Source: an uncultured Planctomycetaceae bacterium (GTDB lineage Bacteria; Planctomycetota; Planctomycetia; Pirellulales; Pirellulaceae). From it: a stretch of DNA of 39,626 bases. Below are positions 5,579 through 39,626 of this stretch, piece by piece. A program made the translations under genes and the position numbers. The DNA is taken from positions 1 to 39,626 of the forward strand of contig CAIYOB010001103.1 in the NCBI GenBank assembly GCA_903927685.1. The letters are read 5' to 3'. The stretch's first letter is position 1, and the number at the start of each line of letters is the position of its first letter. The notes beneath the pieces are model-generated. The model had not been told where the DNA came from, ran no database searches, and worked only from the letters and a program-made list of their open reading frames with translations.

Positions 5579-6082
5579 ATGACCAGCCACGATGTTCCCG
5601 CGTCTGAAGCTCGCCACCGCCGAGGGCCCCGTCTTGCCGCGGGCGTCATGCTGCTGCTTCCCCTGCTGGCCGGGTGCGGCAGCAGCGAGTACACGGCGGT
5701 CCCGGTCTCCGGCCGGGTGACGTTGGACGGCAAGCCGCTGCCGGACGTAGGCATTGTCTTCGTGCCCATCTCCAAGGAGCGGGAGCGACCGAACATCGGG
5801 CCCGGATCGCTGGGCCGCACCGACGCGGAGGGCCGGTTCACGCTGCAGACCGTTCGCGGCGACGCGGGAGCGGTTCCGACGGAGCATATTGTGCGCATGG
5901 CGCCGGCGGCAAGTCCGAGCGATCTCGATCGCCCGGAGGACTTTACTCCGGAAGGGAGCAGCCCACCCAAGCCCGTCGAGCGACCGCCGGCCCTGCCGCG
6001 TCAAGCCCTTGATGGCACCTTGCGTTTCGAGGTTCCCGCGACCGGCACCGATCAAGCCAATTTCGACTTCGTTTCCCGATGA
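5579..6082 (+). CDS. Small lipoprotein with carboxypeptidase-regulatory-like (transthyretin-like) fold
   Basis: A 167-residue exported protein. The N-terminus is Arg-rich, followed by MLLLPLLAGC, a lipobox with the acylated Cys near residue 33. VPVSGRVTLDGKPLPDVGIVF and then GRTDAEGRFTLQT are the two signatures of the carboxypeptidase-regulatory-like beta-sandwich found in hundreds of small planctomycete lipoproteins. The end (TDQANFDFVSR) is a beta strand typical of the family. ATG 5579 has GAAGGA six bases upstream. The stop overlaps the next start as ATGA (6079-6082), which suggests translational coupling with the PepSY protein. Role unknown; probably a periplasmic or outer-membrane-anchored structural partner. 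Confidence 0.88.
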   Translation: MTSHDVPASEARHRRGPRLAAGVMLLLPLLAGCGSSEYTAVPVSGRVTLDGKPLPDVGIVFVPISKERERPNIGPGSLGRTDAEGRFTLQTVRGDAGAVPTEHIVRMAPAASPSDLDRPEDFTPEGSSPPKPVERPPALPRQALDGTLRFEVPATGTDQANFDFVSR

Positions 6083-7236
6083 CGACGCGCACGCTCGCCC
6101 GAAAACTTCATCTTTGGCTGGGTATCACGACGGGAATCGTCGTTTCGGTGATCGCTTTGTCCGGGTGTCTGTACGTGTTTGAACGGGAGCTACGGGACCG
6201 GCTGGACCCGTTTCGGTGTGTGGAACCCGAGGCGGGCACCCTGTTGCCGCCCTCGGCCCTGCGCGCCATCGCCGAGCGTCAACTGCCAGGCGAGACGGCA
6301 AGCCGCGTGTATTACGAAGGTCGCCAGCGCGCGGCGTACGTCCAGTTCGGCAACATCAAGACGCCGTACTACAAGCTGGCTTTCCTGAACCCGTACGACG
6401 GCCGGGTGCTGGCAATGAAAGACATGAACCAGGACTTCTTGCACGTCGTCTTCAGCCTGCATTACCGGCTGCTGCTGGAGCCGGAACTGGGAACCACGAT
6501 CGTCGATTGCGCCACGCTGGTGTTTGTCTTCATCCTGATCAGCGGACTGGTCAACTGGTGGCCGCGGCGCTGGGCGGTACTCGCGCAACGTCTGCGAATC
6601 CGCTGGCAGACCACCTGGCGACGGCGGAATTACGACTTGCACAACGTGCTTGGGTTCTACGTACTCCCACTCGCTTTGATCTTTGCGCTGACCGGCTTGG
6701 TCTGGGGATTCGATTGGTTCAACGGCGCCGTGCGCTGGCTCGCGTCCGGAGGGTGGCGCGGTGCCCTGGCCTCCCGGCCGGCGACGCTCGAGATGCCGTC
6801 GCCGACGGACTCGCCCAGTCAGAACGTCGACGCCGCCTGGCAGTGCATCACACGAGCCAACCCGGATGCGGAAGCGACGATCGTATTCTTCCCATCGAAC
6901 TCACAGCGGACGCTGCGCTTCGTCGTCAATCCGCGGCGGTACACCTACTACCGGACGGACCACTACGACTTTGACCCGCACACCCTGGCGGCGGCCCCCG
7001 GCCGGGATTCCTGGGGCAGATACCAGGATGCGACGGCGGCCGGGGTGGTCCGTCGCGTGAATTTCGACGTTCACAGCGGGGCGATTCTCGGACTGCCCGG
7101 CAAGATCCTGGCGTGCCTGGCCAGCCTGATTGTCGCCAGCCTGCCGGTCACGGGGCTTCTGGTTTGGCGGGGCAAGGGGAACTCGGCGGCAGCCACGGAA
7201 GCGCCCCGCCAATTTCGGCCGGGAACTCACGCCTGA
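6079..7236 (+). CDS. PepSY-associated TM (PiuB-type) membrane protein
   Basis: A 385-residue inner-membrane protein with the standard four-helix plan of the PepSY_TM family. LARKLHLWLGITTGIVVSVIAL forms helix 1. Helix 2 is near residues 137-157 (CATLVFVFILISGLVNWWPRR), helix 3 near 188-213 (DLHNVLGFYVLPLALIFALT) and helix 4 near 344-366. Periplasmic loops of about 100 and 130 residues lie between helices 1-2 and 3-4. Conserved His residues in helices 1 to 3 (HLW, HVVFSLHYR, LHNVLG) could bind haem or metal. The family is linked to iron uptake, ferric reduction and flavin-dependent electron transfer. The start overlaps the lipoprotein stop by four bases. A second, shorter PepSY protein lies at 23232-23966. 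Confidence 0.9.
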   Translation: MTTRTLARKLHLWLGITTGIVVSVIALSGCLYVFERELRDRLDPFRCVEPEAGTLLPPSALRAIAERQLPGETASRVYYEGRQRAAYVQFGNIKTPYYKLAFLNPYDGRVLAMKDMNQDFLHVVFSLHYRLLLEPELGTTIVDCATLVFVFILISGLVNWWPRRWAVLAQRLRIRWQTTWRRRNYDLHNVLGFYVLPLALIFALTGLVWGFDWFNGAVRWLASGGWRGALASRPATLEMPSPTDSPSQNVDAAWQCITRANPDAEATIVFFPSNSQRTLRFVVNPRRYTYYRTDHYDFDPHTLAAAPGRDSWGRYQDATAAGVVRRVNFDVHSGAILGLPGKILACLASLIVASLPVTGLLVWRGKGNSAAATEAPRQFRPGTHA

Positions 7237-21647: not shown

Positions 21648-21709
21648 ACGCGGCCCGGTTTGTTGTTCTTGGCGACCGAGTACCTCGACGAAGGGTGAGA
21701 AGAACATCG

Positions 21710-23287
21710 ATGTCATGCACCAAACCGACGCTGGCGTTGGCCTTTGCCTGGCTGTCATGTCTCGGGGGTCTGTCGGCTTCCGCAGCGGACCCGCCGTGGG
21801 TTTTTCATCATGACGACGTGCTGGGCACGTCGCTGGAACTGCACGTTCAAGCCGAATCCGCCGAGGCGGCACGCGCGGCCGAGACGACTGTGCTCCGCGA
21901 GATCGATCGGCTGGCGGGGATTTTGAGCGGCTACGATTCGACCAGCGAGTTCCGCCGCTGGCAGGCCGCTGCCCCTGGCACGCTGCCCGCGTCCGGAGAA
22001 TTGCTGGACGTGCTCGAAGCGTGCAGCCGTTGGCGGACCGTCAGTGGCGGTGCTTTCAATCCGGCTGTCGAGGCGCTCAGCCGACTCTGGGCGGCGTGTG
22101 CCCGGACTGGCCGGCTCCCGACGGCGGACGAGTTGTCCCAAGCCCGAATTCGGGCGGAAGCCGCCTCATGGCAGGTGGAGCGAGCGTCAAGGACCGTTCG
22201 CTCGGCTACCGATTGTCCGCTCACCCTGAACGCCTTGGCCAAGGGTTATATTATCGATCGTGCCTGCCAGGTTGCGCTCGCGCCCGGTCGAGGGATCCAC
22301 GGCCTGATGCTGAATATCGGCGGAGACTTGCGTGTCTGTGGCGAGCTGACCACCCGCGTGGGAATTGCTGACCCGTGGCATGATTCGCTGACAACCCGCC
22401 CCGTACAGACGCTGGAACTGCGCGATGCGGCACTGGCCACCAGTGGGAACTATCAACGCGGATTCACCGTGAACGGCCGCACTTACTCCCATGTCATCGA
22501 TCCGCGGTCGGGCTGGCCCGCCGACCAAGTCGTCAGCGCCAGCGTCGTCGCTGAGTGTGCGACGGATGCGGATGCATTGGCGACCATTTGTTGCGTCCTG
22601 TCGATGGAGGACAGCCTGGCACTGGTGCGGAGCCTGCCCGGCGTCGAGTGTCTGATCGTCGGGCAGGACGGACGGACGGTCCAATCCGAGGGCTGGAGCG
22701 GGACGGAGCTTTCGCCGGCAAGCCAATTGGCCATCGCCGACACGGGGCCGGCCGAACCCGCGGCACTCGCCCGCAACGCCGCGACAGGAGCGGCCGCGTC
22801 GGAGAATCGAGACTTCGAGCTGGAGGTGAAGTTCGAACTCAACGGCCCATCCGGCGGGCGTCCCTTCGCTCGCCCTTATGTTGCCATTTGGGTCGAGGAT
22901 CCAGATGGACTGCCCATCCGCACGCTTGTGCTCTGGGTCTGGAACTCGGGCCCCGGCCCGCAGTGGATTCCCGATTTGCGCCGCTGGTATCGCGCCGAAC
23001 GCTTGCGCCGACTGGCCGAAGAGACGGATCTTGTCGACACTGTATCTCGGGCCACGCGTCCGCCCGGAAAGTACAACGTCATCTGGGATGGAAAGGACGA
23101 TCACGGGAAACCGGTCGCGGCGGGCGAGGTCACCCTCTTGATCGAGGCGGTCCGCGAACATGGGACCTACCAAATCATCAGCAAGAAGATCAAACTGGGC
23201 GGCGAGCCGTTCACTGAGGAACTCAAAGGCAATGTCGAACTCAAGTCCGCTTCCCTCGACTACCACCGCAAGAAACAAGATCGGTGA
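21710..23287 (+). CDS. FAD:protein FMN transferase (ApbE) fused to DUF2271 domain
   Basis: A 525-residue exported protein. The signal peptide (1-26) is followed by an ApbE domain (about 28-340): HHDDVLGTSLELHV, Asn174-Ala-Leu-Ala-Lys178-Gly, LNIGGDLRVCG, His261-Val-Ile-Asp-Pro-Arg-Ser-Gly and ECATDADALATICCVL, which carries the Mg-binding Asp/Thr pair. ApbE moves FMN from FAD onto a Thr or Ser of exported target proteins. From about 370 to the end there is a DUF2271 domain (FELEVKFELNG, RPYVAIWVEDPDGLPIRTLV, GKYNVIWDGKDDHGKPV), normally a separate protein beside PepSY and ApbE genes. ATG 21710 follows GAGAAG at a good distance. The 3' end overlaps the next PepSY gene by 56 bp. The pair suggests a flavin-dependent electron path across the inner membrane. 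Confidence 0.9.
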   Translation: MSCTKPTLALAFAWLSCLGGLSASAADPPWVFHHDDVLGTSLELHVQAESAEAARAAETTVLREIDRLAGILSGYDSTSEFRRWQAAAPGTLPASGELLDVLEACSRWRTVSGGAFNPAVEALSRLWAACARTGRLPTADELSQARIRAEAASWQVERASRTVRSATDCPLTLNALAKGYIIDRACQVALAPGRGIHGLMLNIGGDLRVCGELTTRVGIADPWHDSLTTRPVQTLELRDAALATSGNYQRGFTVNGRTYSHVIDPRSGWPADQVVSASVVAECATDADALATICCVLSMEDSLALVRSLPGVECLIVGQDGRTVQSEGWSGTELSPASQLAIADTGPAEPAALARNAATGAAASENRDFELEVKFELNGPSGGRPFARPYVAIWVEDPDGLPIRTLVLWVWNSGPGPQWIPDLRRWYRAERLRRLAEETDLVDTVSRATRPPGKYNVIWDGKDDHGKPVAAGEVTLLIEAVREHGTYQIISKKIKLGGEPFTEELKGNVELKSASLDYHRKKQDR

Positions 23288-27017: not shown

Positions 27018-29033
27018 CTACTCGCGGCCGCTGGTCTTCCACGCCAGTCCGTCGATCCAGATCCGCAGCGGCGGGGCGCCCCACGAGTCGAATCCGATGG
27101 TCAGGTAGTTGACCTGCTTCAGGTCGACCCCGGCGCGTTTCCATTGCTCGTCGCCCGCCAGCGGAATAGCGAAGTAGGTCCAACCCTCGCGTTCCTCGCT
27201 GTTGGGCCGCTGGCTCATCAAGTCCGTGACCGGCGTCAAGGTGGCGGATGTGGTTTCCGACTCGTACAGCGTCACTAACGGGTTTGTTTCCTGCCAGGCA
27301 GGGACGTTCTCGTTGATCGCACGGATCCAGAACACCAAGTGGGTCTTGTCGCTCAGCGTTACCGCCGCGTCTTTCGCGGCCGGATACAGCAGGCTGACGC
27401 GGCCACCGCTGTACGGCTGGACCACGGCCGCCAGCGACTCGCCGCCGGAGATTTGTTGCTCGCGGTCGTCCGAGAAGTGGACCTGGGACTGCGGGTCGCT
27501 CCAGGACCATTGGCCCGCCTGACCGTTCGTGCCGAACTCGACAACGTCCTCCACGGCATACAGATCCCGCCAGCCGAGGTCGGACAGCAAATCGTTCTGA
27601 ACGGTCAAGCCGACACGGTGGAATCCGGGCCTGAGAAAGACGTGTTCGACGCGCGGTTGGTCCGAGATCGTACTGTCGCCGAGGTCCCAGCGGAAACGCA
27701 GCGTTCCGCCTGTGGGATCGCGACTGGCCGAAGCATCGAACACCACGGCCTGTCCCACCACGGCTCGTGCGGGCCCCTCCAGGACGGCCTGCGGCGGTTT
27801 GCGGACGGCCGCGTTCTCGCCGCGCTCGAACAGGTTCGTGACGTTTCCGTCGTTCAGCACGTCATACTCGCGGTTGCCGCGAAACACGTTGGCCGCGAGG
27901 TCGATCCAATCGGCGTTCTTGACGTACAGTCCCCAGCGGTTGTCCGCCAGGGTATTCTGCTCGACAATCCAGTGAAACGCCTTCCATTTGCGGCCCTCGC
28001 TGTCCAGGTCCCCGACCAGCGCGATGCCCGCCCCGTTGTTCCCGAGGCACCGATTGCCGCGGGCGATCGTGTGGCTGGATGTGCCGAACAGGAAGATGAT
28101 CCCCGCATGCCCCGCGCCCGGCAGGTGGGGGGAATTGTGCATGCCGGTCGGCAGGCCGTTGTAGGACGCTTCGTTGTCTTCCAGCACCGTCTGGTCAGAG
28201 CCGCCCATCCAGAATCCGTAGCTGCCGTGATTGGCCTTGTTCCCGATGTACGTGTTCCGCGGCGACCAGGACTCGATGCAGTTATTATTGGCGTACGAAC
28301 AGTCGTTACGTTCGAACACGTTTCCCGTGCTGACCCAGCCGTTCAAGACCCGGACGAAGATTCCATCACCGCCGTGGGTACAGTCGTTGTCGGCGAACCG
28401 GTTGTCGTTCGAGCCACTTTCGATCAGTACGCACGTCGAGTCGCGAGCGTGAACCTCGCCCGGATCGATCCGCAGGCCCCAGCTCAACACGTTGTTGCGG
28501 ATCTGGTTGCGGCAGGCGGTCCACAGCTTGAGGCAGGTATTGGAGGTGTGCGAGAAGTCGTTATTCTCCAGCAGATTGTCATTCGATTCGACCAGCACGC
28601 AGCCATCCCAGACGCGATTGGCCCGGTTGCGGCAGAGCGTCGAGTGCTGGACGCGGACCAGCACGAGCCCGCCGCGGCGGCCGTTCTCGCCCCAGCCGAA
28701 GGCCGGGTCGTGAAAGTTGTCGGACAGGTCGCAATCCTCGATCCGCCAGCCGCTGCCGTCCTCGATCCTCAAGCCGGTTTCCCAGCCCTTCACCCGGACG
28801 TTCTTGAGCGTCACGCCGGAAACGCCTTGGGCGAAAATCCCGGTTCCCGTGTACTCACGCGGGTCGCCCGACGTCTTTCCAACCACCGCGGCGCCGCGGC
28901 CGTCGAGCGTGATGTTCGACGCTTTGATGATCAGCGGACCGTACGTCTGGGCGGGATCCAGGACGGTGTCGGCGGTGATTTCCATCGCCGGTGACAGCGT
29001 CAGGCACAGCGGAGCAAGAAAGGAGAGCAGCAT
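27018..29033 (-). CDS. Secreted beta-helix (NosD/pectate-lyase-like) protein with PKD domain
   Basis: A 671-residue secreted protein. After the signal peptide (MLLSFLAPLCLTLSPA) comes a right-handed beta-helix (about 20-420) with many Asn ladders: TLDGRGAAVVG, VTLKNVRVKGWETGLRIED, NDNLLENNDFSHTSNTCLKL, SNDNRFADNDCTHGGDGIFV, TVLEDNEASYNGLPTGMHNS. A PKD domain follows (about 425-500: VVGQAVVFDASASRDPTGGT, RFRWDLGDS, VEHVFLRPGFHRVGLTV). A jelly-roll-like C-terminal domain ends in LRIWIDGLAWKTSGRE. Beta-helix proteins of this type bind or cleave polysaccharides; no catalytic residues were identified. ATG 29033 gives the clean signal, whereas the longer frame to 29126 is Arg-rich. It is convergent with the LamG protein, four bases between stops. 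Confidence 0.85.
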   Translation of the reverse strand: MLLSFLAPLCLTLSPAMEITADTVLDPAQTYGPLIIKASNITLDGRGAAVVGKTSGDPREYTGTGIFAQGVSGVTLKNVRVKGWETGLRIEDGSGWRIEDCDLSDNFHDPAFGWGENGRRGGLVLVRVQHSTLCRNRANRVWDGCVLVESNDNLLENNDFSHTSNTCLKLWTACRNQIRNNVLSWGLRIDPGEVHARDSTCVLIESGSNDNRFADNDCTHGGDGIFVRVLNGWVSTGNVFERNDCSYANNNCIESWSPRNTYIGNKANHGSYGFWMGGSDQTVLEDNEASYNGLPTGMHNSPHLPGAGHAGIIFLFGTSSHTIARGNRCLGNNGAGIALVGDLDSEGRKWKAFHWIVEQNTLADNRWGLYVKNADWIDLAANVFRGNREYDVLNDGNVTNLFERGENAAVRKPPQAVLEGPARAVVGQAVVFDASASRDPTGGTLRFRWDLGDSTISDQPRVEHVFLRPGFHRVGLTVQNDLLSDLGWRDLYAVEDVVEFGTNGQAGQWSWSDPQSQVHFSDDREQQISGGESLAAVVQPYSGGRVSLLYPAAKDAAVTLSDKTHLVFWIRAINENVPAWQETNPLVTLYESETTSATLTPVTDLMSQRPNSEEREGWTYFAIPLAGDEQWKRAGVDLKQVNYLTIGFDSWGAPPLRIWIDGLAWKTSGRE

Positions 29034-29414
29034 GGCGAGTATCTTTCTGTGGTTTTCCGCGAACGATTCTACGTGGACCGCGCGCCGTGAGCTGAGGCCG
29101 CGCCGTGCGGGTATCATAGCTGCCATCCGTCGTCAGGAGAAGTTCGCCGACGCGGGCCGCCTGTGAGGCCGCCAGATCCCGCCCGGATCACGGCCGTTGC
29201 CACCGTCGAGCGATCGGCGGCGTTTCCGATTCTGCCGTTTCTGACGATTGGATTAGCGAGTGCAGGTCCCATCCGCCACCCCCTGCTTGTCCTGCGCCGT
29301 TCGTGTACCATACTTGACTGGGTTCTTGCGTCCTGGCACGTAACTGCGGACACCGGCTTCTTGACGGGAAGCCTTGGCGATGAGCCCCTGACTCTCGACT
29401 CTTCAGGATCTCCC
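29034..29414. other. Divergent intergenic region
   Basis: Leader region for the beta-helix gene (minus) and the nucleotidyltransferase gene (plus). On the minus strand TATGAT (29115-29120) could be a -10 element 82 bases before the beta-helix start. On the plus strand TACCAT (29306-29311) could be one for the sugar-nucleotide operon, 104 bases before its start. Both are weak. No further structure was seen. Confidence 0.35.
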
Positions 29415-30248
29415 ATGGACATCACTTGTGCTGTGATCACGGCTGCGGGGCCGCAACAGAGCCGGCTGCCGCTGCAACGTTTCGTGGACTTGGGCGGCGT
29501 GGAGAAAACGGCGCTGCAGATCATCATCGAAGAGGTCACGGCGGCGGGTGTCGAGCAGGTCTGTGTCGTCATTCGTCCCGGTGACCAGCGGGCGTATGTC
29601 GAGGCGGCCGGGGACGACGCCCGGCTGCTGACGTTTGTCGAGCAGCCGGAGCCGCGCGGGTACGGCGAAGCGTTGTACCGGGCGGCCGAGTTCGTGGGCC
29701 AGCGTCCGTTCCTGCACCTGGTCAGCGATCACTTGTACATCAGCGGCGAGCACCGCCGGTGTGCCCAGCAGTTGGTCGAAGCGGCGCGCGAGGAGAACTG
29801 CGCGGTCTCGGCCGTCCAGGCCACGCGGGAGAGCATGCTGCCTTACTACGGAGCCCTTGGCGGCCGGCTGGTGGCCGGCCGGAAGAACCTGTACGAAATC
29901 GACGACGTGCTCGAGAAGCCGACGCCCACCCAGGCCGAACAGACGCTGCTGGTCCCGGGCCTGCGGGCGGGCCATTACCTGTGCCTGTTCGGCATGCACG
30001 TGCTGACGCCGCCGGTGCTGGCGATACTCAAGTCATGCCTCGACGCGGCCGGCCGCACACCGATTTCGCTCTCGCCGGCCTTGGCCGAGCTGGCCCGCTG
30101 TGAACGCTACCTGGCGTTGACCGTCAACGGCACCCGCTACAACACGGGCGTCAAGTACGGCCTGTTGATGGCGCAGTTGGCCCTGGCGTTTCACGGCGTC
30201 GATCGCGAAGAGATTCTGGCTCGCTTGGTCGAAATGTTGGCGCGGTGA
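29415..30248 (+). CDS. GalU-like nucleotidyltransferase with altered nucleotide-binding loop
   Basis: A 277-residue protein with the nucleotidyltransferase (GT-A-like) fold of UTP-glucose-1-phosphate uridylyltransferases. It starts [20 protein letters not shown], where the normal loop is GxGTR with a Pro-Lys shortly after. [20 protein letters not shown] follows as in Gal[11 protein letters not shown] matches the GLGHA region, and VSDH (103-106) matches the GDD/GDH metal site with Asp105. IDDVLEKP (162-169) and [14 protein letters not shown] (242-255) complete the pattern. The nucleotide loop lacks its conserved Lys and Gly-Thr, so activity may differ. ATG 29415 has AGGA at seven bases. The 3' end overlaps the downstream kinase/pyrophosphorylase frame by GTGA, indicating one operon. 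It may act as a partner or regulator of the large fusion enzyme. Confidence 0.78.
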
Positions 30249-30256
30249 GGAGAGGG
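30247..30256 (+). promoter_or_regulatory. Strong ribosome-binding site deciding the fusion-gene start
   Basis: GAGGAGAGGG lies directly before ATG 30260, with AGGAG seven bases from it. The in-frame GTG at 30245 would begin inside the upstream stop and has no site of its own, so ATG 30260 is chosen. Confidence 0.7.
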
Positions 30257-30259
30257 CGT

Positions 30260-33591
<3,332 letters not shown>

Positions 33592-33601
<10 letters not shown>

Positions 33602-33998: not shown

Positions 33999-35738
33999 AT
34001 GCCGAGGACTGCGAGTGGAACGCGAATGACAGACCCGGTTGCGGCCCCAGCGGTGACGGCGCACGCGGCCACGGCCCCCCGGGGCTGGTGGCGCCGTGAC
34101 GCGGCCCTGTACGCCGTGATCGGCTTGTGTCACTTGCCGTTGCTGTTGGTGCAATGGCAGCGGATGTGGCAGATTGAGTGTTATCGGTATTTCCCTTTTC
34201 TGCTCGTCGCCGCGGTTCTGTTGTTGCGGGGACGGTGGCGTCAACTGCCCGAGCGGCCGACTTTCCTGCCCTCGCGGTCCAGCGTGGCGGTCCTGGTGCT
34301 CGGCTGGCTGGTCCTGCTGGCCGCGGTCGCTGTGGCCTCGCCTTGGCTGGGTACGGTCGCGGCGATTGTCAGTGCCCTGGCGCTGGTCCTGTCGTTCGGA
34401 CGTTCCGCGGCGGTTGCCCTGGCGCCGGCCTGGGCCCTGCTGTGGCTGAGTTTGCCGCTGCCCTTTCGCTGGGACCAGCGGTTGTTCGTGTGGCTCCTGG
34501 GATGGACCTGTCAAGGCGGCAGTCGCTTGCTGGACTTCTGGGGCTTCAATCATGTGTTGGCCGGGTATGCGCTCGACGTCCCGGGGCGGCAATTCCAAGT
34601 GGAAGAACTGAGTGGCGGCTCCCAACTCGTCCTGGCTCTGATCGCCATGGCGGCCGTGTTGGCGGTGTGGCTGCGGCGGGGCTGGATTCACGGCGTCTTG
34701 CTCGTCTGCGGCAGCCTGTTTTGGGCGGTGGCGTTGAACATGGCCGGTGTGGCGTTGATTGTCCCGTTGGCCGTCGGACAAGGCGTCGACCTGACGGTCG
34801 GGGCGGCGCGGTACCTGTTCGATGCGGGGTTGTTCCTCGCCGAATTACTGGTCCTGCTGAGCACGGATCGCCTGCTGTGGTTCTTCAGCGAACCCTGCGG
34901 CTTCGGCCCCGGTGAGGACGACGAGGATCCGCCGCTCGGCGAGCCGGGCGACGCACGCGAGGCAGGGAGGCCAGCGTTGCCGACGGATGGCGAAATCCGC
35001 ACGGCCTCGGCTGCTGCGCGGCTCGGGCTGCGCGTCCTGGCGGTCGCGTTTTTGGCGGTCGGTGGGCTGCAGGCCGCGACGTGGAGTCGGCAGACACCGC
35101 AACCGGGCGAGTTGACGGCCGAGACCTCGGTTGCGGACGGCAGCGGACGCGTTGCGTCCGCTGCGACGTTAACAGCAGACACGCTGCCGGGGGCGTTGGG
35201 CGTCTGGACCGTCGTAGGCTTCCAGGCCGTGACCCGCGCCCCGGACAGCGATTTGGGGCGGTATTCGCTGGTCTGGCGGTATGCCGACGCCCGGGAGGAG
35301 GCCGCTGTCTCGCTGGACTTTCCGTTCGTCGGCTGGTATCCTTCGGCCCGCAGTTTTGAGTCGCGGGGCTGGGAGATCGAATCGCGCGAGATCCTGGCCG
35401 GGGGCGGAGTCGCCGGGCCCGTGCTCGAAGTCCGGATGCGGGACGCCAGCGGGCGGCGGGGCTACTTGTTGGTCAACCAGCGAACCGATTCGGCGAACGT
35501 GGTGACGCCGCCGCCGAGTTCCGGATGGACGCTATCGGGCTGGCTGAGTGGCGTTCACGACCGTCTCCTGAGCCGTTTTGGCGAAGGGGCCGGTCAGCCG
35601 GCGACATACAAGATCCAACTGTTGGTCACCGGCGATTTGCCCTTGGACGCAGCCCAGCGAAGCCAGGCTCAAGAGGTCTTTCAGCAGGTCGTCGAGCGGA
35701 TCTGCGACCGAGTGTGGCCCAAGGATGCCTCGCCATGA
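33999..35738 (+). CDS. Exosortase U-like membrane protein with EpsI-like C-terminus, catalytic residues replaced
   Basis: A 579-residue inner-membrane protein with eight or so helices (about 33-300) followed by one more near 341-360 and a soluble EpsI-like domain (about 390-575: LPGALGVWTVVGFQA, LGRYSLVWRYADAREEAA, FPFVGWYPSARSFESRGWEI). The order and the pattern VPGRQFQVEELSGGSQ, ALNMAGVALIV and VDLTVGAARYLFDAG...LLSTDRLL correspond to planctomycete exosortase U. Active exosortases have Cys in EACSG, Arg in NxxRV and a His after the GW motif. At the aligned sites this protein has Ser205, Gly250 and Arg271. It should therefore not cleave C-terminal sorting signals and may be a scaffold. ATG 33999 has CGGAG at six bases; ATG 34026 is an alternative. 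Its stop overlaps the TPR gene start as ATGA. Confidence 0.82.
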   Translation: MPRTASGTRMTDPVAAPAVTAHAATAPRGWWRRDAALYAVIGLCHLPLLLVQWQRMWQIECYRYFPFLLVAAVLLLRGRWRQLPERPTFLPSRSSVAVLVLGWLVLLAAVAVASPWLGTVAAIVSALALVLSFGRSAAVALAPAWALLWLSLPLPFRWDQRLFVWLLGWTCQGGSRLLDFWGFNHVLAGYALDVPGRQFQVEELSGGSQLVLALIAMAAVLAVWLRRGWIHGVLLVCGSLFWAVALNMAGVALIVPLAVGQGVDLTVGAARYLFDAGLFLAELLVLLSTDRLLWFFSEPCGFGPGEDDEDPPLGEPGDAREAGRPALPTDGEIRTASAAARLGLRVLAVAFLAVGGLQAATWSRQTPQPGELTAETSVADGSGRVASAATLTADTLPGALGVWTVVGFQAVTRAPDSDLGRYSLVWRYADAREEAAVSLDFPFVGWYPSARSFESRGWEIESREILAGGGVAGPVLEVRMRDASGRRGYLLVNQRTDSANVVTPPPSSGWTLSGWLSGVHDRLLSRFGEGAGQPATYKIQLLVTGDLPLDAAQRSQAQEVFQQVVERICDRVWPKDASP

Positions 35739-37228
35739 ACGCTGATCCGATCCGTAGGTCCTGGCTCGAACGACTTGCGCGGGCGCTCGACGCGGCGCAG
35801 CTTCGCGGCCAGGATTGGCTGTTCACCCGGAGCCCGGTGCTGCTCGCTCAGGGGCTGCCGGCGCTGCTGCTGGCGGCAGCTTTCCTGTGGGCCTGGTCCA
35901 GCGGCGGGCCGACCCGCGACCTGGTCTCCCGATACGACGTCGCGGTCGAGCGGGCATTACTGGCGGACGATGTGGCGAGCGCCAAGGTGTATGTGCGGAA
36001 GTTGGTGCTGCTGGATGAACCGGGGCAGCGCACGCGGTACGCCCTGGCGCGGCTGGCGGAACGCGAAGACGACTTGGGCCGCGCGCAGCGATTGATGGCC
36101 GACTTGGCTCCGTACCCGGGGTCCGGCTTTCCGGCGGCCCATTTCTGGCTGGCCCAACGGCTGCGGAATCCGCCCCCGGCCGACGAGGCGGGCAGCCGGG
36201 AACTGATTCACCACCTGGAGCAATCCCTGGCCTCGCCGGACAATCGGCAGCAGGCTTACGAGTGGTTGGCCGAGTTGTATCTGGCCCGAGGCGATTCGCA
36301 GCAGGCCGCTAAGTGCCTTGAGGAGATCGCGCCGCAGAAGCCCGAGTTGTACCTGCGATTGGCGGAAGTGCTCCTGGAGCGTAACGACGAGATCGGGATG
36401 CAGCGGGCCGCGAAACAGGCGTTCAATCATTTTCAACGGCGCGTGGGAGCCGACCCCAAGGATGTCGCGGCGAGGATCGCGTCGGCGCGTGCCTGCATCC
36501 TGGAAGGCAAGTTCGACGACGCCGAGCGGTTGTTGCAGGATGGCTTGGCGATCGCCGACGAGGCGTCGTTGCGGCAGACGCTGGCGGAATTGTACCTGAA
36601 GCAGGCTGAGCGCGCGGATACGGCCGCCCCGGCCGCCCTGGGCCGCCGGTTGGAACTGCTCAGCAAGGCCCTGCGCACGGCCCCGGACCATCCCGGCGTG
36701 GTGGACCGCCTGGCGGCGTTCGTGCGCGATTCCGGTCCGCCCGCCGAGGCGACGCGAGTCCAGTTGCGGGATCTGTTGGCCGCCGGACAGCAGCCGGCGA
36801 CAGTGCATCTGCTGGTGGGCGCAACCGCGGCCGCCGAGGGGCGCTGGGACGAGGCACGCATCCACCTGGAACAAGCCTATCAGCTGAATTCCCGCTTGCC
36901 GGCCCTGTTGAGTCAACTGGCCTGGGCCTTGGCGCAGGCCGAGACGCCGGACCTGGAGCGGGCGCTTCGCCTGGCCGACGAAGCCGTCAAGCTGGCTCCG
37001 GGTCAGCCCGCTGTACTCGCGACTCGGGGCCGCATCCTCGCCCGGCTCCAACGTTGGCAGGAGGCGCTGACCGATTTGGAGGCAGCCCTCGCCGGCAGCG
37101 GCGACAAGAGGGAACTGCACGCAGCGTTAGCCGAAGTCTACACTGCGCTGGGCGACGGCGAGATGGCCGAGCGCCACCGGGAGAAGGGCGAGGGGCGCGG
37201 GGCGAGGGGAGAAGGGAGAGGGGAGTAG
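35735..37228 (+). CDS. Membrane-anchored tetratricopeptide-repeat protein
   Basis: A 497-residue protein with one N-terminal membrane helix (PVLLAQGLPALLLAAAFLWA, about 35-58) and a long run of TPR helices to the C-terminus. Examples are QQAYEWLAELYLARGDSQQA, PELYLRLAEVLLERNDEIG, ASLRQTLAELYLKQAE, RWDEARIHLEQAYQLNSRLP and AVLATRGRILARLQRWQEAL. TPR proteins of this build accompany exosortases as scaffolds. Translation is coupled to the exosortase-like gene (ATGA overlap at 35735-35738), so the two products probably form a complex at the inner membrane. The last 15 residues are encoded by a GA-rich simple repeat (37186-37228) and look like a late extension. Confidence 0.9.
   Translation: MNADPIRRSWLERLARALDAAQLRGQDWLFTRSPVLLAQGLPALLLAAAFLWAWSSGGPTRDLVSRYDVAVERALLADDVASAKVYVRKLVLLDEPGQRTRYALARLAEREDDLGRAQRLMADLAPYPGSGFPAAHFWLAQRLRNPPPADEAGSRELIHHLEQSLASPDNRQQAYEWLAELYLARGDSQQAAKCLEEIAPQKPELYLRLAEVLLERNDEIGMQRAAKQAFNHFQRRVGADPKDVAARIASARACILEGKFDDAERLLQDGLAIADEASLRQTLAELYLKQAERADTAAPAALGRRLELLSKALRTAPDHPGVVDRLAAFVRDSGPPAEATRVQLRDLLAAGQQPATVHLLVGATAAAEGRWDEARIHLEQAYQLNSRLPALLSQLAWALAQAETPDLERALRLADEAVKLAPGQPAVLATRGRILARLQRWQEALTDLEAALAGSGDKRELHAALAEVYTALGDGEMAERHREKGEGRGARGEGRGE
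37186..37228 (+). repeat. GA-rich simple repeat at the TPR gene end
   Basis: Purine-only runs of GAGAAGGG, GAGGGG and GCGGGG units form the last codons (Glu, Gly, Arg) and the stop of the TPR gene. Such tracts are prone to slippage, so the true C-terminus may vary between strains. Confidence 0.6.
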
Positions 37229-37370: not shown

Positions 37371-38570
37371 TCACCAGTTGAACTGGCCGCCCAGGGTGAC
37401 ACCGTGGAACCACGTGTCGCCTTCCGTGTCCAGGCTCGTTCCGGTAGTGCGAGTCAGCGGCGCCAGCGCTTGGCCGTCGACCAGCGCCAAGCCGTACAGA
37501 TACCAGACTTCATATCCGCAGTACGCCGACAAACGCCGAGTGATCCGGAGGTTGGCGCGCACGCCCAGTTCGCCTTGGAAGGCAAGCGCCACTTCATCGT
37601 CGGAGTTGTTCAGCTCTTGGACCCCGGCGTTGACCAAACGCACGTCGCCGTCCGCAAAGTTGGCGTAGACGCCGAGTTTCGTCCGGGCCATGATGCTCAG
37701 CCGGTCGGATGCGCCGATGGGGTGGATGACGTCCAATCCGCACTGCGGACCGATCAGGCGGTTGTCCGTGCCGAGCGTGAACAGGCCCTGGTCCCCCGGT
37801 GGCGTCGGGCGTTGGGACCCGAAGACAAATTCCTCGCCCAAGTCCATGTATCTCAAGCCGATCATGCACGACATGGTGTCCCAGTCGAAGTACCGCTCGT
37901 TGATCTCCACGCTGTGGAACTTTGTGGTGTAGGACTGGTAATGCGACTCGGCCTGGTTGAACGCCGAGATGTTCACGTCCCCGTTGGGCACGAAGAAATC
38001 CGAGTATAACGGAAATCCGCTGGCCGTGCCGGAGACGGACCACTCGAACGGTCCCACGTAGGAAACCTCAAGGGCTTCCGCGCAATCCCAGCGGCGCCCC
38101 ACGGTGACCCGCAACCCCGTTTCGAAGGACGGCGCTGGCAAGGCGTAGGCGGTGGACAGCGAGGCGGAGTCGCGGCCTTCATTGGCAAAGTGCAAGGCCT
38201 CGCCTTGCACGTACCACGACGGCGGGCAGCCCAGGCCGCAGTCGGCCGGCAGGGCGTCGTCATAGCTACCGGCTTCCTGAGGCGTGTCGGCGACCATCAT
38301 CTCCGGCTGCGGCGACATGGGTCCCGGGGCGTTCGCCTCGGCTTCCGGCTGGGCGACCCTCGGCACGCCATCCTGCCCGGATGCGAGCGAACCGCAACCG
38401 GCGAGGCCACCGCCCCAGATCGCCACCAGGCCCTGCAGCGCAAGCGGCAAGAGGTAGCGTTCCCAGCGGGGTCGCTTCGGGCGACGACGCGGAGCGTCCC
38501 CTGTATGTCGCGGCGAGGCGTCTCCGGTTCGTTGCTCGCTGAGCGTAGTTCTACTGCTTCGTTTCCACAC
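37371..38570 (-). CDS. BBP7-family outer-membrane beta-barrel protein
   Basis: A 399-residue protein. An Arg-rich start precedes a hydrophobic stretch ending in GGGLAGCGS, which can be read as a lipobox. A Pro/Glu linker follows, then WYVQGEALHFANEGRDS. From about 150 amphipathic strands alternate: GLRVTVGRRWDCAEALEVSY, MIGLRYMDLGEEFVFGSQ, IGPQCGLDVIHPIG, SIMARTKLGVYANF, VALAFQGELGVRANLRI and TWFHGVTLGGQFNW. GLRYxxLxE and a final aromatic residue are marks of the BBP7 barrels of planctomycetes. Start: GTG 38570 is chosen because AAGGAGGA lies seven bases before it; ATG 38591 would put that site inside the gene. It lies about 50 bp after the secretin-N gene on the same strand. Confidence 0.82.
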   Translation of the reverse strand: MWKRSSRTTLSEQRTGDASPRHTGDAPRRRPKRPRWERYLLPLALQGLVAIWGGGLAGCGSLASGQDGVPRVAQPEAEANAPGPMSPQPEMMVADTPQEAGSYDDALPADCGLGCPPSWYVQGEALHFANEGRDSASLSTAYALPAPSFETGLRVTVGRRWDCAEALEVSYVGPFEWSVSGTASGFPLYSDFFVPNGDVNISAFNQAESHYQSYTTKFHSVEINERYFDWDTMSCMIGLRYMDLGEEFVFGSQRPTPPGDQGLFTLGTDNRLIGPQCGLDVIHPIGASDRLSIMARTKLGVYANFADGDVRLVNAGVQELNNSDDEVALAFQGELGVRANLRITRRLSAYCGYEVWYLYGLALVDGQALAPLTRTTGTSLDTEGDTWFHGVTLGGQFNW

Positions 38571-38577
38571 AGCCCCG

Positions 38578-38585
38578 TCCTCCTT
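38578..38585 (-). promoter_or_regulatory. Ribosome-binding site setting a GTG start
   Basis: AAGGAGGA on the minus strand, seven bases before GTG 38570, is the strongest Shine-Dalgarno sequence in the window. It decides for the GTG over the upstream ATG at 38591. Confidence 0.75.
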
Positions 38586-38622
38586 ATACATTTCGCGTCT
38601 GTCCGCCGGGACAGGCGGGATT

Positions 38623-39626
38623 TCACTTCGACTCGGGTTGCACCACGATTTCGTCCGTCACCGGGATCAGTTGGGACCGCCGCACGGTGGACATGATTTC
38701 GACGGCGTCCGTGCGGCTGGCGGCCGACCCGCGGACGATCAGCCGAGCCGGTTCGCGAACCAGACTCACACGGCTCTGAGGGAACAGGTAGGCGATCAGC
38801 CGTTCGATCTTCTGGGCGTCGGTTTCCGGCTGCGATCTCGGACCGTCGCCGCCGTTGACAGCAACCAGATAGCTGGCGCGATTCAGGCCCTGCCCGTCAT
38901 ACCAGATCTCGACCTTGACGGTCCCCTGCTGTTTGCCGACGACCGCAATCTCGCGGGGGGTGAACAGCAGCACATCGCAGACCCCATCGCGCTCGGACAC
39001 CACGCGGACCACGTTTTCCGCGGTTCGCAGCAGGCGTTGTTCCCGCACTCCCACGTGCAACAGCGCGGGGGCGTCTCCAGCGACCACGGCGTCGTCGGGA
39101 CGCCCGGACAGCGCTGGCGGCGGCGGAGCAACTTGCATCTGTGGCGGCGACTGCGCCGGCAGCCGCAGGGCATCCGGCTGCGGCAGTTCCGCGATCCGGG
39201 CGGCGGGAGGAGTCCGCAAGACATTGGGCAACGGTGCCAGTGTGGTTTCCCGCGGGGGCCCGCTGCGCGCCAGCCGCTCGGTCCGGGGACTCGCGGCATC
39301 GGGCCGCACGCCAACTTCCGGCGCGGGAGGCTCGGACGGGCGACGCTCCAACGCGGGCGCCACATCCGGCGCGAACACGTCGTCGGTCGCTAACGCGGTC
39401 AGTCCGCTATCGTCCGCCTGCCGGTGCTCCGGCAGATGTTTGGCGATGGCCACGGTTTGGGGCTCGAGGACAGCGTCCAGCGAGGTGGGCTCCGGTTGGC
39501 TGTCGGGGCGAAGCGGCGGCAAGGGCGGCAGAGTTGTGGCGGTCCGACCGGACAACGGGCCCGAGGCCGGGATCGCCGCGACCGTCGTCGGCGCCGTGGT
39601 CTCCGGCACCGCCGGAGTCTGGGCCA
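38623..39626 (-). CDS. Secretin N-terminal/BON-domain protein, 5' part cut by window edge
   Basis: The frame is open to the right window edge. Upstream of the first internal GTG (39609) it reads AQTPA, suggesting that a signal-peptide cleavage site lies at or beyond the edge. A Pro-rich disordered stretch of about 180 residues follows. Then comes a pilus-formation (secretin N-terminal) domain: LHVGVREQRLLRTAENVVRV, VCDVLLFTPREIAVVGKQQG, TVKVEIWYDGQGLNRASYLV. A BON-like domain ends the protein: IERLIAYLFPQSRVSLVREP, LIVRGSAASRTDAVEIMSTV. It stops at VVQPESK without any secretin pore domain, so it is a stand-alone periplasmic partner rather than a CpaC-type channel. The following BBP7 barrel may be its outer-membrane counterpart. 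Confidence 0.8.
   Translation of the reverse strand, partial: AQTPAVPETTAPTTVAAIPASGPLSGRTATTLPPLPPLRPDSQPEPTSLDAVLEPQTVAIAKHLPEHRQADDSGLTALATDDVFAPDVAPALERRPSEPPAPEVGVRPDAASPRTERLARSGPPRETTLAPLPNVLRTPPAARIAELPQPDALRLPAQSPPQMQVAPPPPALSGRPDDAVVAGDAPALLHVGVREQRLLRTAENVVRVVSERDGVCDVLLFTPREIAVVGKQQGTVKVEIWYDGQGLNRASYLVAVNGGDGPRSQPETDAQKIERLIAYLFPQSRVSLVREPARLIVRGSAASRTDAVEIMSTVRRSQLIPVTDEIVVQPESK

Follow-up and report, generated by a model that had tools for sequence, protein, structure and literature searches.

A candidate pseudo-exosortase U in a planctomycete, degenerate at both the catalytic triad and the EpsI-like His/Cys signature

From sequence comparison, we identified a gene in the 39,626-nucleotide stretch of planctomycete DNA surveyed here (hereafter the window) that probably encodes a conserved pseudo-exosortase, XrtU2 (33999..35738, forward strand; an open frame of 579 codons and 579 amino acids), in which the membrane-domain triad was lost first and the EpsI Cys afterwards, and which now serves as a non-catalytic membrane partner of a TPR protein. 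We place the probability of this reading at roughly 0.55. The catalytic triad Cys/Arg/His is replaced in XrtU2 by Ser205, Gly250 and Arg271, as a preliminary description of the gene had pointed out; that description overlooked the loss of the EpsI-like domain's own His/Cys signature, and the loss of this signature across the clade to which XrtU2 belongs (clade B) is what is new here. Both candidate active sites have been lost in clade B, the triad first.

The same description had presented the gene as a full exosortase U-like protein with an EpsI-like tail, and domain searches bear this out. The open frame encodes an exosortase (EpsH) membrane domain at residues 39-288 (34113..34862, +), where a PF09721 match (61.6 bits; cut-off 25.7) is accompanied by a predicted helix bundle, and an XrtU_C/EpsI-like soluble domain at residues 399-573 (35193..35717, +), with the complete protein scoring 98 bits against NF033780 (exosort_XrtU_C; cut-off 40). 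The translation start may be Met10 (34026) instead of position 33999, since several homologues start there. The exosortase subfamily model TIGR02602 gave 50.1, under its cut-off of 105.55, and TIGR04178 returned no match at E 0.01; the corresponding scores of an intact homologue, P0012, are 132 and 49.6. A sequence search of the PDB with the protein yielded no relatives at E up to 1, and none of the other window frames of at least 60 codons matched the profile of alignment A1 at E 1.

The register of the catalytic positions was fixed by alignment with four intact homologues sharing 45-47% identity with the window protein (P0012, P0013, P0017 and P0019), and two distant proteins with intact triads, P0030 and P0031, give the same register. 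Ser205 (AGT; 34611..34613, +) occupies the Cys position of the EACSG motif, Gly250 (GGT; 34746..34748, +) the Arg position of NxxRV, and Arg271 (CGG; 34809..34811, +) that of the catalytic His. The Cys, Arg and His of exosortases are termed absolutely conserved in the available text of PMC1569441, and each was present in 68/68 rows of our outgroup, a set in which proteins carrying the XrtU C-terminal domain are over-represented (many being NF033780 matches) and which includes near-identical rows.

A search of 5.8 billion proteins, with scoring confined to the 7997 candidates that had the most words in common with the query, returned at least 30 relatives, including one identical to the window protein (P0002, 100%) and, as its closest distinct relatives, P0003 and P0004 at 82-85% identity. 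Searching proteins with profile A2 (7997 candidates scored) recovered the same 30 proteins and nothing new; a scan of genome contigs found no relatives with the window protein as single query and five loci with alignment A1. Residue counts were taken from an alignment of 103 sequences, comprising the protein matches together with sequences taken from genomes within the family and the phylum; L003 and L005, which duplicate P0025 and P0028, and the fragments L074 and L001_3 had been removed before counting. Homologues at 41-85% identity to the window protein carry identical or other triad replacements, and the triad loss is therefore beyond chance. The full triad was found in 68/68 outgroup rows, in 4 of the 11 members of a sister clade (clade A), and in none of the 20 distinct clade B rows, the window protein among them. 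Beyond its four intact members, clade A comprises five proteins with His replaced by Gln and two with Arg replaced by Cys, single-residue changes that look like apparent first steps of triad loss. Within clade B, Cys has been lost from 18 rows, Arg from 19 and His from 19, in a mosaic in which Cys persists in P0016 and P0023, Arg in P0026 and His in P0021. The conserved homologues that the preliminary description had proposed searching for exist as a clade united by its lesions; the exact Ser/Gly/Arg triplet occurs in only 5/20 rows. This rules out the triplet as a conserved state, and the conserved feature is the loss of the triad, not the residues that replaced it.

A second lesion lies in the EpsI-like domain (35337..35354, +), where alignment places Tyr447 at a position that is usually His and Ser452 at one that is usually Cys, both within the pattern GWHxLxxCYxxxGW. 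Among EpsI (PF11984) matches from the phylum, for which 30 loci were fetched and two (L128 and L131) dropped beforehand, both residues of the HxxxxC signature that correspond to this His and Cys were present in 28/28, and the Pro of HxPxxC in 26/28. Cys452 is found in all 67 outgroup rows with a residue at this position and in all 11 clade A rows, as against 1/20 clade B rows; His447 is found in 66/67, 11/11 and 10/20, respectively. We also compared those columns conserved in at least 90% of the outgroup: 10 of the 14 lying near the motifs (at most five positions from the triad or from 447/452) fall below half in clade B, compared with 0/17 lying elsewhere, 15 of which stay at or above 90% and two at 55% (Fisher p 2.3e-5, uncorrected for kinship; L002_4751 was also left out of this comparison). 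Weak PF11984 matches, below the cut-off, were obtained for P0011, P0031 and the intact XrtU of L002. Fusions of exosortase and EpsI were also observed elsewhere, in 11 of 30 loci, which serve as examples and not as a rate, the search patterns having demanded both motifs.

The order of these losses was read from a careful tree of 43 rows, built with the motif columns excluded and rooted on 11 chosen XrtU rows. Clade B is supported at 100/99, and clades A and B together join the intact XrtU of L002 at 100/99, placing the window protein among XrtU proteins. The first branch of clade B is P0011 (92/89 for the grouping of the others), which has an Ala/Gly/Gly triad and retains the EpsI His and Cys; the triad was consequently lost before the EpsI Cys. 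The minimum number of changes on the tree is two for Cys205, three each for Arg250 and His271, one for Cys452 and five for His447.

Immediately downstream, the start of the TPR gene (35735..37228, +) overlaps the XrtU2 stop codon as ATGA (35735-35738), in agreement with the translational coupling proposed earlier. It is followed by two antisense genes: a conserved neighbour (37371..38591, -), whose product has no Pfam or NCBIfam match at E 0.01 and whose homologues stand beside the XrtU2-TPR2 pair in L001, L003 and L005, and a gene for a T2SS-T3SS_pil_N domain protein (38623..39609, -), with homologues in the same place in these three loci. The order XrtU2, TPR, antisense gene of the unknown family and antisense pil_N gene is hence common to the window, L001, L003 and L005, with identities to the window of 52-54% for the TPR protein and 43-47% for the unknown-family gene; the XrtU copy of L001 belongs to clade A and has a Cys/Cys/His triad. 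A TPR match also follows the XrtU copy on the short contig L004, and no TPR gene lies downstream of the clade A copy of L002. Across a redundant set with limited flanks, a TPR gene follows 58/85 XrtU frames, intact as well as degraded ones, so the pairing of XrtU and TPR is ancestral and not particular to the dead form. Upstream genes in the window are of the nucleotide-sugar/polysaccharide kind (UDPGP domain, nucleotidyl transferase), among them one at 30245..33601 (+) with a UDPGP domain and a part resembling fucose-1-phosphate guanylyltransferase, below cut-off; near the XrtU copy, L003 has a sugar-nucleotide dehydratase upstream and L001 a family 4 glycosyl transferase. Adjoining the nucleotide-sugar genes of the window is a reverse-strand gene (27018-29126, -) with right-handed beta helix and PKD domains. 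Farther away, the products of the frames at 21695-23287 (+) and 6079-7236 (+) resemble, when inspected by eye, an ApbE-type flavin transferase and a PepSY-type membrane protein, respectively.

Among 241 genomes of the family, XrtU_C matches were found in 142, and only four (G001-G004) matched the clade B profile strongly (>550 bits). G001 encodes five XrtU proteins, three intact and two from clade A, of which one carries the change of His to Gln (L002:4757-6580) and the other that of Arg to Cys (L001:10001-11734). G004 encodes two intact XrtU and a dead one, along with two further exosortases that keep Cys/Arg/His and a fusion protein lacking the Cys. Of the two draft genomes, G003 contains a dead XrtU only, with no further PF09721 match, and in G002 a dead XrtU is accompanied by a Cys-less fusion and by a short N-terminal fragment lacking the triad positions. 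The second, intact exosortase that the preliminary description suggested looking for was therefore present in G004 but not seen in the drafts G002 and G003, that is, in one of three genomes with a clade B copy. PEP-CTERM matches at E 0.01 numbered one each in G001, G003 and G004 and zero in G002, and a simple pattern detected no PEP-CTERM substrate within the window. In G001 and G004 the single match adjoins XrtU (L002:4061-4750, +, and L152:1477-2436, -, respectively), as if it were a dedicated substrate.

These gene complements bear on an alternative in which the dead copy acts as a regulatory partner, forming complexes with an intact exosortase U or capturing its substrates and thereby tuning sorting. 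It would fit the coexistence of dead and intact exosortases in G004 and of partly degraded and intact XrtU in G001, as well as the arrangement in L002, where the His-to-Gln XrtU, a PEP-CTERM protein and an intact pair of XrtU and TPR stand in a row. Nevertheless, the dead copies of the window, L003 and L005 have a TPR protein of their own, and no full-triad exosortase was seen in the drafts G003 and G002; we therefore regard regulation of an intact partner as unlikely, albeit the strongest of the competing explanations.

The Cys-less fusions of exosortase and TPR, located at L150:1381-3753 (+) in G004 and L145:1-1989 (+) in G002, are 86% identical over the matched part. Both have Trp in place of the Cys, keep Arg and His, and match neither NF033780 nor PF11984. 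The TPR domain belongs to the same family as the window TPR protein (35% identity), and the closest exosortase that BLAST assigns to the fusion (41%) is L007, an intact protein from the same genome, which lies outside clades A and B. We read the fusion as a probable separate instance in which an exosortase lacking the Cys has been retained alongside a TPR partner but not EpsI. The lack of an EpsI domain alone diagnoses nothing, as the intact exosortases L136 and L144 have no fused EpsI domain either.

Mosaic losses within clade B, and the graded states in its sister clade, might alternatively be taken as signs of a decaying duplicate, the gene heading for loss and an intact paralogue covering for what would be a clade of relics. 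Several observations argue against such decay. Pairwise dN/dS among three clade B genes was well under 1, at 0.22 (0.17-0.28) for L003-L005, 0.21 (0.16-0.27) for L004-L005 and 0.37 (0.23-0.55) for L003-L004; between the window and its DNA-bearing relatives dS is near saturation (pS 0.66-0.69), and these estimates cover the relatives only. Furthermore, the lengths of the 19 listed clade B proteins lie between 555 and 590 amino acids, none of the 17 conserved columns outside the motif regions shows loss, and the degraded proteins form one well-supported clade. A pseudogene is ruled out by the dN/dS among the three relatives and by the intact frames, and progressive decay is in our estimation less probable still than a regulatory role. 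The view of the gene as a conserved pseudo-enzyme, put forward in the preliminary description, is upheld by the lesion clade, by these dN/dS values, by the retention of full length and by the overlap of the stop codon with the TPR start.

Archaeosortase ArtA and the exosortases belong to the same superfamily. According to the available text of PMC9263693, ArtA requires Cys173, Arg214 and Arg253. By analogy, Arg271 by itself need not mean inactivity, and since an Arg at the third position serves ArtA, the weight of the argument rests on the losses of Cys and Arg. Relocation of the triad elsewhere in the protein was considered and rejected: the sole newly invariant Cys of clade B is Cys44 (34128-34130), for which a catalytic role is judged unlikely. 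Altered catalysis through another nucleophile or a rearranged site, such as Ser205 with Arg271 (in the manner of ArtA Arg253) or Cys44, could draw on the ArtA precedent and on the presence of Cys44 in 20/20 clade B rows and 7/83 others (two of the seven, L003 and L005, being clade B duplicates), yet it appears quite improbable given that 10/20 clade B rows have Gly or Ala at position 205 and 19/20 have Gly at position 250, that Cys44 sits inside the first predicted helix (27-58), distant in sequence from the triad motifs, and that the EpsI Cys is gone too.

To return to the conserved pseudo-exosortase, a copy of exosortase U, probably a duplicate, lost the membrane-domain Cys, Arg and His first, and the EpsI-like domain then lost its Cys and, in some lineages, also its His, while length, fold and framework residues were retained. 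Such a protein would no longer cleave PEP-CTERM-type proteins; it might instead sit in the inner membrane as a partner or anchor for the TPR protein translated with it, with a putative joint task in the assembly or export of envelope material, either polysaccharide or surface protein, perhaps gripping, but not cutting, a hydrophobic segment or sorting tail. The platform or export role is proposed on account of the synteny, the coupled TPR gene and the separate exosortase-TPR fusion. Where exosortase U is active, its EpsI His/Cys pair and the triad may belong to one pathway, such that a dead triad would render the pair dispensable. We tentatively extend this to a bolder proposal, to which we lend rather less credence: that EpsI is a second catalytic half of the exosortase, the His and Cys of HxPxxC acting with the triad (e.g. 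by passing on the cleaved protein) and the loss of one freeing the other, and that the leftover scaffold, as in the Cys-less fusion, has a separate non-catalytic task, anchoring in the membrane a TPR-based machine for envelope assembly.

A maintained clade lacking both the triad and the EpsI Cys would imply that the scaffold has a second, non-catalytic function. The co-loss also provides an evolutionary handle on EpsI, predicting a part for its Cys and His in the sorting reaction. Finally, the label "exosortase" is no guarantee of sorting activity: four of the 30 protein matches (P0008, P0016, P0021 and P0023) are named exosortase by their source, and all four fall in the degraded clade B.

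With regard to known systems, open-licence PMC literature, surveyed through titles and the starts of abstracts, reported neither a catalytically dead exosortase clade nor an exosortase-TPR fusion, and searches of open-licence PMC literature for exosortase with pseudoenzyme, and for DUF3485, returned nothing. The predicted fold of the C-terminal domain is DcrB/Mog1/PsbP-like; a Foldseek search with the model of the window protein gave no match at E 0.001 or better, including to the DcrB, SciW, Mog1 and PsbP folds, and the resemblance is a lead only, fold likeness being no evidence of function. The VIA-align rows spanned mainly the C-terminal domain, and what they lack speaks for that domain only. 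Of the NCBIfam models, the coupled TPR protein matches best PrsT, the TPR protein belonging to XrtA/PEP-CTERM systems (TIGR02917), at 82.4 bits and thus far under the cut-off of 312.2. The C-terminal domain can be aligned to EpsI/DUF3485 (TIGR02914, PF11984), and differs from it in having Tyr and Ser where EpsI keeps its His and Cys throughout; the available text of PMC1569441, the 2006 paper proposing the system, describes EpsI as being without known function. ArtA resembles the window protein in its Arg at the third catalytic position, whereas the two residues needed in ArtA at the other positions are both changed in the window protein. Another close counterpart is exosortase U of planctomycetes (NF033780), from which the window protein departs in lacking the triad and the C-terminal His/Cys and in its TIGR02602 and TIGR04178 results, and with which it shares the domain order, the membrane plan, the C-terminal domain and, in many cases, a TPR gene downstream.
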